Part shown: piece after piece, positions 56,148 through 64,000 of the stretch
Position numbering within the stretch: the first letter of the stretch is position 1
How the letters are laid out: every line of letters starts with the position of its first letter
From: Porpolomopsis calyptriformis
Taxonomy: Eukaryota > Basidiomycota > Agaricomycetes > Agaricales > Hygrophoraceae
Length of the DNA stretch: 64,000 bases
NCBI GenBank assembly: GCA_951640195.1
Contig: OX621170.1
Coordinates: 558,001-622,000 of the forward strand
Reading direction: 5' to 3'
Position numbers and translations under genes: made by a program
The notes under the pieces: model-generated
Told to the model about the DNA's origin: nothing
Seen by the model: only the letters and a program-made list of their open reading frames with translations
Databases searched by the model: none

Positions 56148-56720
56148 CCTTCTTGCTCACTCCACGCTATACAACCCCTACTCTGTCTGGCCAGTGCTGA
56201 AGGTCTTCACCCATGAGATCAATTTCACCACCCAGACATTAACATCGATTAGGCTTGCTCTCTCCCCTTGTATTCCCGTCAAGCCCCCCAATATCCAACT
56301 GCCACCGTTCCACCAATGGTTTTGACTCGTTCATCATCCACTATCCCTCACCCTGCTATCCCTCTCTCCCAGGAAGGCTCTCTCCCTCCTGCCCCAGCTC
56401 CCATCCCCGACGAGACAGTTGACCCTGCCCAAGAAGAAGAAGAACAAGAACAAGAAGAACAAGCGGGTCCCTCTCACTCAAAAGGGAAAGGTCGAGCTGA
56501 GGACAATGATGAGGATGAAGAAGATGATCCACATGTAGCCTTCGAGATCATGAAGCAGGATTATCAGCAATTGCTGCAGGTCCAACAAGACCAAGCGCAA
56601 GCGAGTCATAGAATCGAACAACAACTCCAAGTATTGATGGCCAACCTCATAGGCCCCCAACCTGTCCCTGCCCCTCTTGGGCCATTTCCCCAACCCTTCC
56701 AAGCACCCCCAGTATTCCCC

Positions 56721-56725
56721 CAACC
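56721..56725. repeat. Target-site duplication CAACC (left copy)
   Basis: CAACC occurs directly before the left LTR and again at 63434-63438 directly after the right LTR, the 5-bp duplication expected of Ty3/gypsy integration. Confidence 0.95.
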
Positions 56726-57107
56726 TGTTATGTTTCGGTAGTCGAAGGGTTTTACTTCTCACATTGGAGGGGCTGATGAGGGAAATGGAATTCGACTAAA
56801 GAGTGGGGGAGCTAACTAGGAATCGAACTTAACCTACTGACTAGAGGTCAGGCTTTATATACTAACTACCTGAGTCGCCATGAGTCAGTTGTATGTACGA
56901 TTACAAAGTGGAATCCGGAATGTGACTAGTGAAGAGTCACAAAAGGAATAACGGAAACGGAATGTGACTCGTGAAAGAGTCGGAAGGAAGGTACATGTGA
57001 TCAGTCTCTATATATAAAACGGTAAAGCGGAAGGATGAACGGAAAGGAGACTAATCAAGTATGACTAAAAGGAAAAAGAAAAAGTGTCCGTGAAAGTGTC
57101 CGTGATA
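56726..57107 (-). repeat. Inner element 3' LTR
   Basis: 382 bp. Compared with the right copy it has differences only at 56737, 56761, 57020 and 57106. In sense orientation it begins TATCACGG (the usual TGTCA altered at the second position) and ends ATAACA. Confidence 0.95.
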
Positions 57108-57187
57108 TACACCCACACTAAAAGGAATTTCGTCTCGAAATTCGAGGCGGCTTCGAGAGTGTTGACGGGTGCGGAGGAGGGGAAGGA

Positions 57188-57766
57188 CTAGATTAAGTCC
57201 TTGTCGGAGATGGCGGTCGACAGGGAAATAATGTCGGCCAGGGAAGTATCGTTGTCGTCGGGGATGGTGATGGGGTTCGACGACGAACCGGGGGGAACGA
57301 CGAGCGGACCTGGGAAAACAGGAGGAACCGGGGAATCAAGATGGGGAAGTACCTTTACGACTTCCTCGTATTTCGTCTCCCAGTGTTTGGCCTGTTCTCG
57401 CCAATACTCACTCGCTCTTCTCTTTCCATCCAAGCTCATTCCTTGATTATACAATTCCTTGTTCAATCTCGCGATTTCGTTTTTGTAATATTCGACGTCC
57501 TTCTGTAACGACTCGATGATTTGCTCGGGTGGGATGGGTGGCGCGACGATTTCTTCTGGCCATATGGGAAGGTCCCGGTTACGCGCGCGACGGTTATGTT
57601 GCCAGAGTTGTCCGGCGAGCTCAGCTTCACCGTAGGCAGAGGAGGTGGAAGCGAGTGGAGGGAGAGCGCGGCGAGGGGGTTGTCCTCCAGTGGACATATG
57701 AGGAGCGCGGGGTGGACGACCACCAGTAGACTTGCGAGCAGTTTGGTGTGAGCGTTCTGCGGGCAT
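57188..57766 (-). CDS. Chromovirus accessory ORF with histone H3 tail mimic
   Basis: A 192-residue ORF between the pol stop (57889) and the 3' LTR, with its own ATG. The N-terminus is MPAERSH followed by QTARKSTGG (residues 8-16), identical to histone H3 residues 5-13, then RPPR where H3 has KAPR. A second degenerate unit, MSTGGQPPRRAL, follows at residues 24-35. The middle contains RRARNRDLPIWPEEI and a long helix with heptad character (IIESLQKDVEYYKNEIARLNKEL, then ASEYWREQAKHWETKYEEVVKVL), likely a coiled coil. The C-terminus is Pro-rich, then acidic. Unlike gag and pol of the same element, this ORF has no stop codon. I know of no established function. Binding of the element's or the host's chromodomain proteins is inference. 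Confidence 0.85.
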   Translation of the reverse strand: MPAERSHQTARKSTGGRPPRAPHMSTGGQPPRRALPPLASTSSAYGEAELAGQLWQHNRRARNRDLPIWPEEIVAPPIPPEQIIESLQKDVEYYKNEIARLNKELYNQGMSLDGKRRASEYWREQAKHWETKYEEVVKVLPHLDSPVPPVFPGPLVVPPGSSSNPITIPDDNDTSLADIISLSTAISDKDLI

Positions 57767-57888
57767 AGCGATGTCGATTTTTGAGAGTGAAAGATGGAGA
57801 CGAAAGAGATTATAAGGATGGGTCGGAGTTTGGAAAGGTGACAAAAGTGAAAATATAAACGAGGGGAGTTGATACCGTGAAAGAATGA

Positions 57889-60800
57889 TTAGGTCGCTGT
57901 TTGAATTGAGTGTTCGTATTCTAGAATTCGTTCTTTCGCATGGAGGAGGTTCTTCTTCGGCTCCCAGGTTGCTTCTTCAATGGGATAGCCAACCCATTTG
58001 ACCAAATATGTACGACGTCGGGTAGACCCGTGGTGTTGGAGAATTTGTTCGACCTCGTATTCTTCTTTCTCTTGAATGACATCCGGAGGTGGACGGAGAT
58101 TATCATCTACTTCCTCTGGATGGAGATCGGAGTTAATGTTAGCGGGTCTCAGGAGTGAAATGTGAAAGACGTTGTGTATTTTCCATGATAAGGGAAGGGC
58201 CAGGCGATAAGAGACTTTTCCAATTTTTTCTAGAACTTTGAATGGTCCAGTGCGTCGGACATCAAGCTTGAGAGTTGGACGACCTGTTTTTAAGTTACGG
58301 GTATCAAGATAAACGAATTGACCTATTTGGAGTTGGGTATCTTTCCGTTTACGATCTGCGAAGCGTTTCATAGTTTCGGCCGTTGTTTCTAGAGCTTTTG
58401 TGGCTTCTTTACGGGCTTCTGTGAGATGATCGTGAAAGGCATCTGCTGCGGGATTGGAAGTAGGGATCGCAGGGATAGATGGGACGAAGGGATGTTGGCC
58501 AGTGTCAAGGTAGAAGGGAGTGTGTTTCGTCAAGGAGTGCTGTCGGTTATTATACGCAAATTCAGCTGGGGATAGCCAGTTGGACCAATCGTCTTGCATA
58601 AAGTTTGTATATAAACGAAGGTATTGTTCAAGTTCTTGATTGGTGCGTTCCGTTTGACCATCAGTTTGGGGGTGATAAGCAGTGGATAAACCAGAGATGA
58701 TTCCCAAATGAGTATTGAGAGCTTTCGCGAATTTGGAAGCGAATTGAGTTCCTCGATTGGTTATGATCTTCTTTGGCTAGCCGTGGTGTTTCCATACGTT
58801 GTCCCTGAAGAGTTTTGCGACTCCTTCTGCAGAAATATTCGATGTCGTCGGGACGAAATGAGCGCGTTTGGTAAAGCGATCGACAACAACTAAAACAGCA
58901 TCGTAGCCAGATGATTGGGGGAGTTCCACGATTAGATCGGCGGTGATTTCTTCCCAAGGTCGAGACGAAGGGGGAATGGGTTCCAGGAGACCTGCAGGTT
59001 TAGAGGGATAGAGCTTGACTTGTTGGCAGGTCAGACAGGATGATACGAATACACGGATGTCAGGGGCAGCACTACTCCAGGTGTAGTTCCGCAACACAAG
59101 CTCACGTGTCTTCTCGATTCCGGGATGGCCTCCATGGGGTAGGGAGTGGGTCAATCGAATTATCTCTGTGCGTAGCGATACATCTGCTGGCACGACAATA
59201 CGATCTCCTGCATCTCTCACAATTCCGTCAGTGAAGGAGTAGCCGGAAGAGGGATCAGATAATTTGATGCGAATGTCCTCTGGGATTTGGTTGAAGTCGG
59301 GGAAGCGAAGTCTTGACATGAAAGAGGGTTCGGACATGGAAATGATAGCATTGATGAAACGTTCAGGAGGGAGGAGGGCTTGGCCTTCTAATTCTTCTTT
59401 TTCTGTACGACGGTGGTCGGGTCGGTGAGAGAGTCCATCAGCTTTGTTCTTGACTCCAGGAGAATACTCGATCTTGAAGTCGAATCTGCCTAAGAATTCC
59501 ATCCAACGTGCTTGTCGTCTGGAGAGGGATCTGTTCTGCATGAAATACTTCAGTGCTAAATTGTCTGTTTTTATCAATACAGTATCCCTTGCGCCCTCTA
59601 AAAGATAGCGCCAATATTTGAGGGAAGTGACAATCGCAAGCATCTCCAGGTCATGGGTAGGATAGTTGTACTCGGCAGGGAGTAAGGACTTCGAGAAAAA
59701 GCCAACAGGGTGCCAACCATTGTCGTGTTTTTGAGATAAGACCGCGCCAATACCGAAATCGGAGGCATTGGTCTCCAGGAGGTAAGGAAGGTCTGGCCGC
59801 GGGGTAAGAAGGACAGGGGCTGTAGTGACGAGATATTTGAGTTGTTCAAAGGCTTTTTGACACAAAGGAGACCAATCCCAAGGTTGGTCTTTCCGCAAAA
59901 GTCCACAGAGGGGACGAATGACTGAGGAGAAACTTTTGATATAACGACGCCAGAAGTTGGTGGTGCCAAGGAAGGACTGGAGGTCTCGCAGTTTTTGGGG
60001 TGTCGGCCAATTGATAATGGCGTCTACCTTTTTTGGATTGATAGCGAGTTGACCTTTACTGATGATTGTACCAAGATATGTAACAGAGGTCTTCTCCATT
60101 TGGCATTTGACAGGTTTGGCGGACAGTTGATTCTTCTCCATGAGTTTAAGGGTTTCGTCGGTCCAGTGGCGGATTTCTTCGGGGGTGTCACCCATAATAA
60201 GAATGTCGTCAATATAGATATGAACACAGCCAGAGTCCAGAACAGGTTTAAAGAGAACGTCTATCATTCGTTGAAAGGATGCTGGGGAGTTTCGTAGTCC
60301 AAAGAACATAACGGTCAGTTCAAAGAGCCCTCGATTGGTGATGAAAGCTGCCTTCCATTCGTCGCCTTCCTTGAGTCGTATGTTGTTAAATCCCCATCGA
60401 ATATCGATAACAGTAAAAAGTGAAGCAGTAGCAAGCTTCGGTACTTGGAGGATTTCCGATAGAAGGGGGAGGGGATAACGATCAGGAATGGTTTTCGAGT
60501 TGATGTAGCGATAGTCCTGGATGGGATGTAGACCAGCACTGAGACCTTTGGCATTGATCTCTTCAGCCTTTTTCGCAAAGAAGAAAGGAGCAGCTTGTGG
60601 TGATTTCGATGGACGTATTCGACCTGTTCTGAGATTTTCATCAATAAACTTATTAAGTTCCACCTGTTCATAGGGGGAAAGGGGATAGAGTTTTCCGACT
60701 TGAAATTTGGTGTTCGGGTAGAGGTTGATCGCATGATCAAAGGGACGTCGAGGAGGAAGTTTGTCGAATTCTGCGGTATGGAAAACATGCCAGAAATTGT

Positions 60801-61509
60801 GATAACGACTGGGAATGAAGGATTTGATGTCCTCCTCGATGGAAACTGGTCGGGAGTGGTCAACTCCGACCAAACGGATAAAGGAGTCATGTTTCAGACT
60901 CGAATCAAAGACGTAGAGTTCTTCCTGTGGGGGCAACACTCCGACTCGCATACTACTGAACAGCATGTCACCAGACGCAAAGGTTAAGGTGCCTTTTGTC
61001 CAATTGATGGTGGGGTTGTGTCGCAAGAGCCATGGGAAGCCGAGGATGACCTGTTGCTTTCTTCCTAAGTTGGTGACCTCCAACCGGATTCGTTCTCGAA
61101 AAGATAGATCTGGTGCCTCGATAAACAGGTCTGTGTCGTGCGTGATGGGACCTCCTCGGTTCTCAGAACCATCAGCGTTTCGTACCGGTACAACCTCATC
61201 CAACGGATAGGTCGATATCTCCATTTGACGAACGAATGCTTCGTCAATAAAATTCCCTGAGGCGCCAGAGTCAATGAGTGCTATGATAGCCACTCATCGA
61301 AGATTGTCGGCACTCGTGATCCAAAGATAGAATTCGAGAGCGCCTTTGCCCTGTTCAAGTGTGCCAAGAAAACGAAAACTTTTCATAGATGGTGGTACAC
61401 ATACATGGGACACAGCCAAAGTGCTCGGGCATTTAGCACTTGGCCGGATTAAAAATCCTTTTGCTCTTTTAACGCTCGAGCTAGCGCAGCCCGTCTCTCC
61501 TTGTCCCAA
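57889..61509 (-). pseudogene. Inner element pol (PR-RT-RNaseH-IN-chromodomain), interrupted
   Basis: Protease: ALIDSGASGNFID. RT: LHPIQDYRYINSKT, FTVIDIRWGFNNIRL, FFGLRNSPASFQRM and YIDDILIMG (YxDD intact). RNase H: LLETNASDFGIGAVLSQ, where the expected catalytic Asp is Asn (codon 59767-59769). Integrase: an HHCC zinc region (HGGHPGIEKTRE ... CLTCQQVK), first Asp in ITADLIVELP, second Asp replaced in IITNRGTQF, Glu in TNQELEQYL. The end is a chromodomain, EEYEVEQIL ... TYLVKWVGYPIEEATWEP, with the Tyr-Trp-Tyr cage retained. TGA at 61294-61296 precedes the protease and TAG at 58777-58779 splits the integrase (KHHG-stop-PKKII). Pol is in the -1 frame relative to gag. Confidence 0.93.
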
Positions 61510-62876
61510 TTCGCGATTCCCATATCCTTCAAGTCGTCTTTTGCCGTCCTTTTCTCTTTTTCGTCATCCTCTGGTACTTCCTCTATCCGCGCTTCCGATT
61601 CTTCTGTATTAACCCGATTGATCATTCGGACATTTCGTCCTTTGCCTCGACCGCGATTTCCTCCTTTTCCTCAAGTAGAAGTTGAGGATTCTTGACGTGC
61701 TGGAACGTCTTCAGCACGTGGGCTTCGACATTCGTTGGCGTAATGTCCCTTTTTGCCACAGTTGTAGCAAGTGATGGAGGAGTTGTCTCGTTTCACTGTC
61801 TTGAGAGAGGCTTCTCTTGATTCTTGTTTGATTGGGGATGAAGTGGTGGTGGTGGTGGAGGTGGAGCGGGAAGGGTTTCCTCAGGGATTCGATTTGGCTT
61901 CAGACTTCTTTCCTTTTTGGTCTCGACTTGACCACAACGCTTGTTCGGCTCGTTGCTCCTGGTACTGTTCCTCGAACTGGGCTGCTTTCGTCGTCCAGTC
62001 TAGCAAGGTCGATGGCATGTTGTCCATCGAATAAATCCGCATTCAGATTGGCTAGGGGAGTCCGGCTTTGTAGAACTGAAGTAGAGCGGTCTCGTTGTAC
62101 TCAGTTCTTGCTGCGTGTTGCATGAACCGAAGGTTGTAGTCTTCTATCGTTCCTGTCATTTTCACTTTTTCTAGCTCGATCCGCGCCTTCGCTGCTGGGT
62201 TAATCCTTCCGAAAGCTTCCCTGAAATCGTCCAAGAATGTTGCGTAGTCCCATATGAAATTCCTCGTTCTATCAACTCCTTCCGTGAACAGTCGTCCCCA
62301 AGCCCGTGGGTTGCCGTCACTGAGATAAGAGAGCATGTAGATGATTTTCTGTTTGTCGTTGTAGTCCTTGACCACAAAATTGAGTCGACATTGGTGAATG
62401 AAATCTTCAAGCTTCTCGGAAGTTCCATCGTATTCAGTTGGATCAGCGATTTTGATTTTGGTGGGGGCTGGAAGTGTAGGGGGAGCAGTTGTCTGGGTAG
62501 GTAGTTGAGTGGGAAAGGTTGATGGGAGAGGAGGTTGGACGGATTCGGTTCTTCTTGCAGGGTAAATGAAAGGATTCGAGGGGGAAAGTCCAGGTCCCTG
62601 AAGTACAGATCGTCGTCGTGGGGGAGGGGTGGTTGGTTCTGAGTCTTCTCGTCGACTTTCTTTGAGAGCTTTTAATTCCTTTCGGAGTTCGTCATTGACG
62701 TCGACTTCGTTGTAGTACTAGCCACGGAACTGGTCAATTTGTGCTCTTAGATCTCTGAGCTCTTGTTCGATGTTGAGTGGGACGACGACTTCTTCTTCTT
62801 CTTGAATGGTAGGGGGGATGTTGCTGGGTCCGGGTGTGGGAACGCTCTGATCGGCTTCATATTCTTGTTGAGACAT
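61449..62876 (-). pseudogene. Inner element gag, five stop codons
   Basis: The frame opens at 62876 (MSQQEYEADQSVPTPGPSN). It has an acidic N-terminus, a capsid domain (ADPTEYDGTSEKLEDFIHQC, LSYLSDGNPRAWGR, LDDFREAFGRINPAAKAR, DYNLRFMQHAARTEYNE) and a zinc knuckle CYNCGKKGHYANEC, followed by a Gly/Arg-rich stretch. Stops occur at 62718-62720, 62052-62054, 62043-62045, 61881-61883 and 61671-61673. Each sits in otherwise continuous homology. The final stop, TAA at 61449-61451, is near the switch to the pol frame. Confidence 0.9.
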
Positions 62877-63039
62877 TGATGTTAGTGATGATGATGAGGG
62901 GGAAAGGGGGATGATGGATTGTGCAGGGGTTTGGAATACTATGGGTTGAAAGGGAGTATCTGAATCTGCGGATGAGAAGATTGACCTTGTTAAGTCTTCG
63001 GTAAGATCCAGAGTGGAGGTAGTTTGATGCGCAAGAAGG

Positions 63040-63051
63040 AAGTTCGATTCT
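63040..63051 (-). promoter_or_regulatory. Self-complementary primer-binding site, inner element
   Basis: Directly inside the 5' LTR the sense strand reads AGAATCGAACTT. Its GAATCGAACTT is the exact complement of AAGTTCGATTC at 63156-63146, which starts 31 nt after TATATAA (63187) in the same LTR. Confidence 0.7.
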
Positions 63052-63433
63052 TGTTATGTTTCAGTAGTCGAAGGGTTTTACTTCTCGCATTGGAGGGGCT
63101 GATGAGGGAAATGGAATTCGACTAAAGAGTGGGGGAGCTAACTAGGAATCGAACTTAACCTACTGACTAGAGGTCAGGCTTTATATACTAACTACCTGAG
63201 TCGCCATGAGTCAGTTGTATGTACGATTACAAAGTGGAATCCGGAATGTGACTAGTGAAGAGTCACAAAAGGAATAACGGAAACGGAATGTGACTCGTGA
63301 AAGAGTCGGAAGGAAGGTACATGTGATCAGTCTCTATATATAAAATGGTAAAGCGGAAGGATGAACGGAAAGGAGACTAATCAAGTATGACTAAAAGGAA
63401 AAAGAAAAAGTGTCCGTGAAAGTGTCCGTGACA
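63052..63433 (-). repeat. Inner element 5' LTR (promoter LTR)
   Basis: 382 bp. In sense orientation it runs TGTCACGG...ATAACA. It carries TATATAA (63187-63181) and the predicted RNA start at 63156. A 5-bp CAACC duplication follows at 63434-63438. Confidence 0.95.
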
Positions 63434-64000
63434 CAACCTGTCCCTGCCCCTGCCCCTGCCCCTGCCCCTGCCAAGATCAAAATGAACCCTCCTGATGAAT
63501 TCTCTGGTGATCCCACCAAGCTTCGCAATTTCCTGCGTCAAGTGAAGCTGAATCATTTGGGACGACAAGGAATCTCAGAGGCCGACAAGATTATCTATGC
63601 CTTGTCATTTATGATCGGAGGAAATGCAGAACCATGGGCTGAGCGTCAAGTAGACGCTTACACAATGTTGAACTGGGTTGGTGCCGATTGGGCTGTCTTT
63701 GAACAAGCCCTTACCCGAGACTTTGGAGACTTGGACCCCAAGTCAACTGCTCAACTGAAGATCAAGGACGTCAAGCAGTTCAACAAGAGTGCAGAGGAGT
63801 ATAACATTAATTTCAATCGATGGGCCCATGATACTGGATACGGACAAGAAGCTTCGACAACTTTATATAAAGATGGACTCAACCCCTCCCTTTTGCGACA
63901 GATCTACCTTTCAGATCGTCAACCCACCACCCTCTTTGAATGGCAGTCTCGTGCTGCTGAACTTGACAGACGACATCGAGAATTTTTGGCTAGAACATCT

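Follow-up and report, generated by a model that had tools for sequence, protein, structure and literature searches.

The window analysed here, a stretch of 64,000 nucleotides from the agaric Porpolomopsis calyptriformis, carries a retrotransposon open reading frame, ORF3, whose N-terminus reads like the tail of histone H3 around Lys9. Is this likeness a matter of chance, a relic of a captured host exon, or a counterfeit histone tail kept by selection, and, if the last, on which proteins might it act?

The element and its open reading frames

The features of the element, all on the reverse strand, are:

56726..63433 (-): whole LTR element of the chromodomain Ty3/gypsy type, with an LTR pair and a 5-bp target duplication CAACC (56721-56725 and 63434-63438; flanks read by eye)
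63052..63433 (-): 5' LTR in element orientation, from comparison of the LTR pair
62052..63053 (-): gag-like open pieces, interrupted by stops
57889..61293 (-): protease/RT/RNase H/integrase polyprotein (pol), interrupted in frame by a single stop, 58777-58779
57913..58059 (-): chromodomain at the C-terminus of the integrase (Pfam PF00385, E 1.5e-13), with Y, W and Y at the group I cage positions
57188..57766 (-): ORF3, 192 aa from ATG to stop, post-pol, with the H3-like tail and two predicted helices
57707..57745 (-): H3-tail-like peptide QTARKSTGGRPPR, equal to H3 5-17 with K14R and A15P
57731..57733 (-): codon for Lys12, the equivalent of H3 Lys9 and sole lysine of residues 1-75 in 56 of 60 intact copies
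57671..57697 (-): MSTGGQPPR, the degenerate repeat, under weak constraint
57338..57529 (-): region of the two predicted helices (residues 80-107 and 112-143), with strong conservation; the post-pol ORF of a sister element is its homologue
56726..57107 (-): 3' LTR in element orientation, from comparison of the LTR pair (last two bases read by eye)

The LTRs, the order RT-RNase H-integrase and the chromodomain at the C-terminal end of the integrase identify a Ty3/gypsy chromovirus. Its two LTRs show 3 differences in 380 aligned bases, all of them transitions; a further difference, read by eye, lies in the last two bases. A first-pass annotation, made from the letters of the window, had described gag and pol as carrying many stops; gag is indeed broken at several places, but pol has only the single in-frame stop. 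The best eight relatives of pol in the protein database are 48-58% identical to it. At its C-terminal end, pol has a Tf2-type SH3 domain and then the chromodomain, which aligns with the chromodomains of HP1, SUV39H1 and CDYL (PDB matches). The aromatic residues Y, W and Y typical of group I are present at the aligned positions, which we take to be those of the cage. The aromatic cage positions of group I chromodomains are in part described in PMC3350952.

The element appears to have inserted into the gag-like frame of another element, given the CAACC duplication and a proline-rich, coding-like stretch that resumes at 63434. On the forward strand, positions 56316-56741 hold an open frame of 141 aa, parts of which are acidic or rich in proline, that terminates within the LTR.

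ORF3 starts at 57766, 122 bases past the end of pol, and lies, as had been noted, downstream of pol, between the chromodomain integrase and the 3' LTR. Its N-terminus is MPAERSHQTARKSTGGRPPR. The nine residues QTARKSTGG (residues 8-16, 57719-57745) are identical to H3 5-13, exactly as the first-pass annotation had reported, and the following RPPR (residues 17-20) stands opposite H3 KAPR in the alignment. When the whole of ORF3 was compared with PDB sequences by phmmer, the top matches were H3 tail peptides, from E 0.13 upward (alignment RSHQTARKSTGGRPPRAP / RTKQTARKSTGGKAPRKQ). The degenerate repeat STGGQPPR, also described earlier, is found at residues 25-32. In the window copy there are 10 arginines up to residue 75. 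ORF3 has no Pfam domain (SlyX, at E 0.16, is far below the cut-off), and with regard to a histone fold no Pfam histone model matched at E 1 or better. In single-sequence AlphaFold2 models the tail has no confident fold; the ten-residue blocks of the predicted helices 80-107 and 112-143 reach pLDDT 72-89, and confidence is low elsewhere (mean 55). These predicted helices support the helical part of the coiled coil that had been proposed.

Conservation and selection

A search with ORF3 as query gave 128 places, including split copies and a second, distant family. The copy set used below comprises 98 sequences (97 fetched and the window copy), with the fragmentary copies C13:317284-317858, C9:698633-699134, C4:389110-389421 and C4:397137-397716 left out; in all, the host genome of 33.5 Mb has about 100 copies of the ORF3 family.

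According to the first-pass annotation, the likeness would have to be regarded as chance if homologous elements lacked the ORF, or if the ARKS segment were not conserved in other copies. Homologous copies do have the ORF. All nine residues are exact in 67 of the 98 copies, with one change in 19, two in 7 and more in 5, and the Lys9 equivalent is lysine in 93 of the 96 alignable copies. The H3 tail itself has several lysines; in ORF3 the Lys9 equivalent is the only one among the first 75 residues of 56 of the 60 intact copies.

The comparison of dN/dS across copies that had been proposed earlier was carried out on 60 of the 98 copies, full-length and stop-free, after exclusion of 31 in which a stop or frameshift precedes codon 185, and of 7 without a start or N-terminus. 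Ratios were calculated from pooled pairwise comparisons and are descriptive, since the pairs are not independent. dN/dS is 0.04 over the nine codons of QTARKSTGG (pS 0.30, pN 0.016), 0.11 over QTARKSTGGRPPR and 0.52 in the 13 codons that follow, which include the degenerate repeat. For the remainder of ORF3 the values are 0.10 in the middle, 0.06 in the helical part and 0.37 at the C-terminus, and the overall value is 0.17. With CpG transitions ignored, the tail has a pN/pS of 0.02. Among 184 nine-codon segments it ranks 2 (counting from the lowest) by pN and 15 by pN/pS; by pN/pS the tightest constraint falls on segments in the helical part and just upstream of it. In the window's family, the H3-like peptide is conserved and under purifying selection.

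That ORF3 has stayed open had been said to fit selection or simply fewer mutable codons. The strong purifying selection agrees with the former. The latter alone does not account for it, because 38 of the 98 copies are broken or partial, yet the intact copies are strongly constrained.

The 26 non-exact copies that remain when the 67 exact copies and the 5 with fewer than six of the nine residues are set aside carry 33 residue changes in total. CpG-type changes account for 22 of them and others for 11, so that these decayed copies look like targets of DNA methylation. One copy (L154) has 369-bp LTRs without any difference and, between them, three long open frames of 474, 1165 and 192 codons, which indicates that the family was recently active.

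Synonymous divergence is two to three times higher in the helical part (pS 0.60) than in the tail (0.30) and the C-terminus (0.21). Recombination between subfamilies may have contributed to this.

Identity to H3 and the chance background

A degenerate DNA pattern for QTARKSTGG has 70 matches in the host genome, against 0 for a reversed control; 67 of these are ORF3 copies and 3 are host H3 genes. The shorter pattern ARKSTGG returned the same 70, with 2 for its control. Outside the host, the nine-residue pattern was found at 24 loci, 3 in IMG/VR and 21 in a prokaryote genome collection (84,980 species). The exact peptide is encoded at 10 of the 24, in 7 cases by eukaryotic-type H3 (contamination) and in 3 by short frames.

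The motif is short and the phmmer E value only 0.13, both of which could speak for an accidental resemblance. We give this explanation next to no credence, as 70 genomic matches stand against none for the control and against 3 exact non-H3 peptides in the prokaryote and viral collections, and as the peptide recurs in a second retrotransposon family and in a metagenome protein (see below). A chance match was rejected on the pattern and control counts and on the prokaryote and IMG/VR background. The identity of the ORF3 tail to that of H3, Lys9 included, is beyond chance, and the peptide is in this sense an H3 tail mimic.

Other chromodomain elements of the host

The region after the chromodomain was inspected in six other elements of the host genome. 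In one of them, L188, which represents the second family, the post-pol ORF begins MPRQVLYARKSTGRRPPRGNP, with an H3-like start MPRQVLYARKSTGRRPPR (read from one copy, which is broken). In a single comparison, the tails of the L188 ORF and ORF3 match at E 1e-5, and two later pieces of the second-family ORF have no similarity to ORF3. A search with the first 45 residues of L188 gave 112 places, 17 of them in a stop-free frame of 243 aa and 3 in one of 255 aa; with the middle segment of the ORF, identical frame lengths were obtained at those 20 open-frame sites.

The pattern ARKS-x4-PP occurs 144 times in the host genome, against 9 for the control. Among 100 of these places, the 81 with letters were assigned by eye to the first family (41), the second family (26) or other sequences (14). 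All 26 second-family places listed retain T11, G12 and R13, and 21 of them also retain R14. On contigs C1-C9, the exact pattern is present at 36 of 84 second-family places, and at only 4 of the 11 whose frame is open throughout; the remaining places have some change among A7, R8, K9, S10, P15 and P16. In the second family, the H3-like peptide exists and is common, and its conservation is incomplete; as the motif is exact at only 36 of 84 places, our claim is limited to existence and frequency and does not extend to selection.

Seven of the 11 open-frame copies on C1-C9 have an altered ARKS-x4-PP, and one of these is 98% identical over the 45-residue N-terminus. Such copies may belong to a subfamily in which a change in the mimic has become fixed, or may reflect CpG decay.

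Another of the inspected elements, L186 (C2:508320-509700), has a chromodomain and a post-pol ORF of 161 aa (MPATRSTRSPSPQVAIRRSG...) without ARKS. The other four (L184, L185, L187 and L189) look like one chromodomain family, with MDDFFGI[DN]DRLYDPITDS after the chromodomain, in 3 of the 4 in the same open frame; no ARKS start was seen after the chromodomain in any of them.

A sister gypsy-type element (L152, L079) encodes a post-pol ORF of 173 aa that shares homology, at 33% identity, with the helical part of ORF3. This ORF has no H3-like tail, and no chromodomain was detected at the end of the sister element's integrase. One copy of it lies at C1:522529-523047, and a further 13 were found at 97% or more.

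At five sites (C1, C4, C5, C9 and C11) the start of the sister element and an ORF3 of the first family are some 1.7 kb apart, which suggests that the two form a nested unit that spread together.

Across families, tail and chromodomain occur together in two and are both missing in one. One more (L186) combines a chromodomain with a post-pol ORF that lacks the tail, and in one (L184 and its kin) the chromodomain is present and no such ORF was seen. This tally is suggestive at most of a tail that tracks the chromodomain.

Relatives outside the host genome

A protein search with the single ORF3 sequence gave 193 candidates, none at E 10, and no ORF3 relative was found in IMG/VR. With a profile built from the ORF3 alignment, one metagenome protein of 186 aa (P0121) was found at E 1.1. 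It contains the peptide three times (QTARKSTGGRPP, QTARKSTGRRPP and QTARKSTGGRPPRA), the last being identical to ORF3 at 14 of 14 positions. The three repeats conform to QTARKSTG[GR]RPP, the rest of the sequence is unrelated, and P0121 has no Pfam domain. Compared with the host genome, it matches ORF3 tails only (32 places, best E 0.03). To judge by these repeats, P0121 is possibly a multivalent H3 mimic.

Origin of the tail

All three host H3 genes (L147, L148 and L149) have an intron right after the G13 codon, and L147 has a second intron just before Q5, so that QTARKSTGG corresponds to one small exon (splice sites by eye). One codon variant of the first family differs from a host H3 gene at 1 of 26 bases. 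The coincidence with a single L147 exon hints at exon capture as the source of the tail. RPPR resembles the KAPR of the next exon, and the match to H3 may equally be set by function.

The exon coincidence and the codon variant could also be taken to mean that a captured H3 exon spread recently and has no present function. This we regard as highly improbable, in view of pS 0.30 against pN 0.016 in intact copies and of the core's presence in a second family whose N-terminus and codons are different. A non-functional captured exon was rejected on the dN/dS contrast; the exon coincidence itself stands.

Proposed function of the tail

The window's family keeps Q5-G13 and L188 keeps A7-G12. The shared core, ARKSTG, contains R8-G12, and position 14 is Arg in both families; in L188 so is position 13. 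In vitro, the Neurospora methyltransferase DIM-5 needs only R8-G12 of H3 (PMC3248561). RKST with its flanking residues is read by SUV39H enzymes (PMC8303541), and HP1-type chromodomains bind methylated ARKS/T in non-histone peptides such as that of G9a (PMC3325965). In the host genome there are one Pre-SET match, at C14:899559-899870, and six DNA_methylase matches; a search for HP1 with a chromo-shadow model gave no match, the control was also unmatched, and intron-split genes are invisible to this search. Taken together, the R8-G12 core, Arg14, the precedents among readers and writers and the host enzymes lead us to infer a methylatable, single-lysine decoy or ligand.

The reading that we tentatively prefer, with somewhat less than even confidence, is that ORF3 is a selected single-lysine H3K9 mimic that would act on H3K9 writers or readers, probably against silencing. 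The mimic tail would be displayed on a helical, probably self-associating, accessory protein of a chromodomain retrotransposon. A host H3K9 methyltransferase of the SUV39/Clr4/DIM-5 type would bind the tail and methylate its single lysine, and the methylated tail would then occupy methyl-Lys9 readers, either host HP1 or the chromodomain of the enzyme itself; the integrase chromodomain of the element is possibly among the readers so occupied. The likeliest net effect would be that silencing directed by H3K9 methylation, including DNA methylation, is diverted or poisoned near newly transcribed or integrating copies. As H3 should far outnumber a transposon protein, a soluble decoy would require high affinity, clustering or local action.

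A rather unlikely proposal is that the tail is a natural dominant negative evolved by chromodomain retrotransposons of fungi, in which a K14R-like single-lysine mimic would titrate or jam the H3K9 methyltransferase/HP1 pathway, one element thus encoding both a reader and a counterfeit substrate. In Neurospora, H3 K14R impairs silencing semi-dominantly, an effect measured on H3 itself and not on a free tail, and for which a downstream cause is suggested by the authors (PMC3248561); the argument from K14R to anti-silencing is one by analogy. Against a decoy in general are the frequent alteration of the motif in the second family and the chromodomain element L186 with its post-pol ORF without ARKS. 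Neurospora H3 with G13M is slightly less active in vitro, and changes of G13 are lethal in vivo; by analogy, the Arg13 of L188, at a position where changes of Neurospora H3 were harmful, would also speak against a decoy.

The chromodomain footprint on H3 stops short of T11-G12. The conservation of these two residues in ORF3 bears on a further reading, possible but in our view doubtful, in which the integrase chromodomain of the element itself binds the tail as its ligand. ORF3, once methylated by the host enzyme, would cap or bridge this chromodomain in the particle or the pre-integration complex, regulating integration or heterochromatin targeting. A partner from the same element would be favoured by stoichiometry, the integrase chromodomain has the group I aromatics and aligns with HP1, SUV39H1 and CDYL, and the sister element lacks both a detectable chromodomain and the tail. 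HP1-type chromodomains are also known to accept non-histone ARKS/T, for example in G9a (PMC3325965). Against such a ligand, T11-G12 is conserved beyond the footprint, L188 lacks Q5-T6, and in L186 a chromodomain goes with a post-pol ORF that has no ARKS. The same chromodomain-ligand logic would apply if host HP1 served the tail as an anchor, tethering ORF3 or the integration complex to heterochromatin for safe insertion and leaving silencing unopposed, and the MAGGY chromodomain does direct to heterochromatin (PMC3350952). This is improbable, since the integrase chromodomain is already capable of tethering and a second tether seems redundant.

Very unlikely is a role in nuclear import, or as a basic peptide of some other kind, with the Lys9 resemblance as a by-product. 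The tail is Arg-rich (10 arginines up to residue 75 in the window copy), and importins are among the partners of H3 tails; however, 56 of the 60 intact copies have no lysine but Lys9 in this stretch, and ARKSTG is kept and recurs in the second family, whereas a generic basic signal would not hold S10-T11-G12.

Comparison with known systems

To our knowledge, the known histone mimics come mostly from animal viruses and have short motifs. Influenza NS1, with ARSK, is one such viral mimic of the H3 tail, and one study (PMC10611923) reportedly deals with human candidates for H3K9 mimicry. The transposon-encoded VANC protein of Arabidopsis relieves silencing and binds DNA sequence-specifically; ORF3 would work likewise against silencing, by the proposed histone mimicry instead of DNA binding.

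Further viral H3-tail mimics are ARKS of SARS-CoV-2 ORF8 and AKKRS of adenovirus protein VII (PMC10208167). These, like ORF3, are foreign proteins with an H3 Lys9-like motif, and theirs act on chromatin enzymes (PMC10208167). The viral motifs have about 4-5 residues, whereas ORF3 has nine identical residues plus RPPR, at the N-terminus, in about 100 retrotransposon copies and with measured selection. G9a/GLP share with ORF3 a non-histone ARK[ST]; their automethylated ARKT is methylated by an H3K9 enzyme and bound by chromodomains and HP1 (PMC9768651, PMC3325965). That motif is the host enzyme's own and is followed by MSKP, while the motif of ORF3 belongs to a transposon product and is followed by TGGRPPR. 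Group I chromoviruses of the MAGGY type have the same Ty3/gypsy order and Y/W/Y integrase chromodomain as the window's element (PMC3350952), but the latter has an extra post-pol ORF and so a copy of the mark's substrate besides its reader. The H3 K14R of Neurospora is a full-length histone made in the laboratory; ORF3 is a natural protein of a selfish element.

The first-pass annotation knew of no established description of such mimicry in fungal chromoviruses, and none was found in the open-licence literature. Across the open-licence papers searched, no H3 tail mimic of a transposable element was described, and a search of open-licence papers by the letters of the peptide gave no match. The text of a review on viral mimicry contains no words beginning with 'transpos' or 'fung' (PMC10208167). 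Histone mimicry is already known; an H3 Lys9 tail mimic in a retrotransposon is new within the literature searched.

The finding opens the question of whether transposable elements use a counterfeit histone tail to counter H3K9 silencing or to guide their own integrase. The natural change of Lys14 to Arg, in a setting nearly free of lysine, is a ready structure-function series for H3K9 methyltransferases. The roughly 100 natural copies in one genome amount to an evolutionary test, in which an H3 Lys9 peptide proves to be one of the more tightly constrained segments in a transposon protein.
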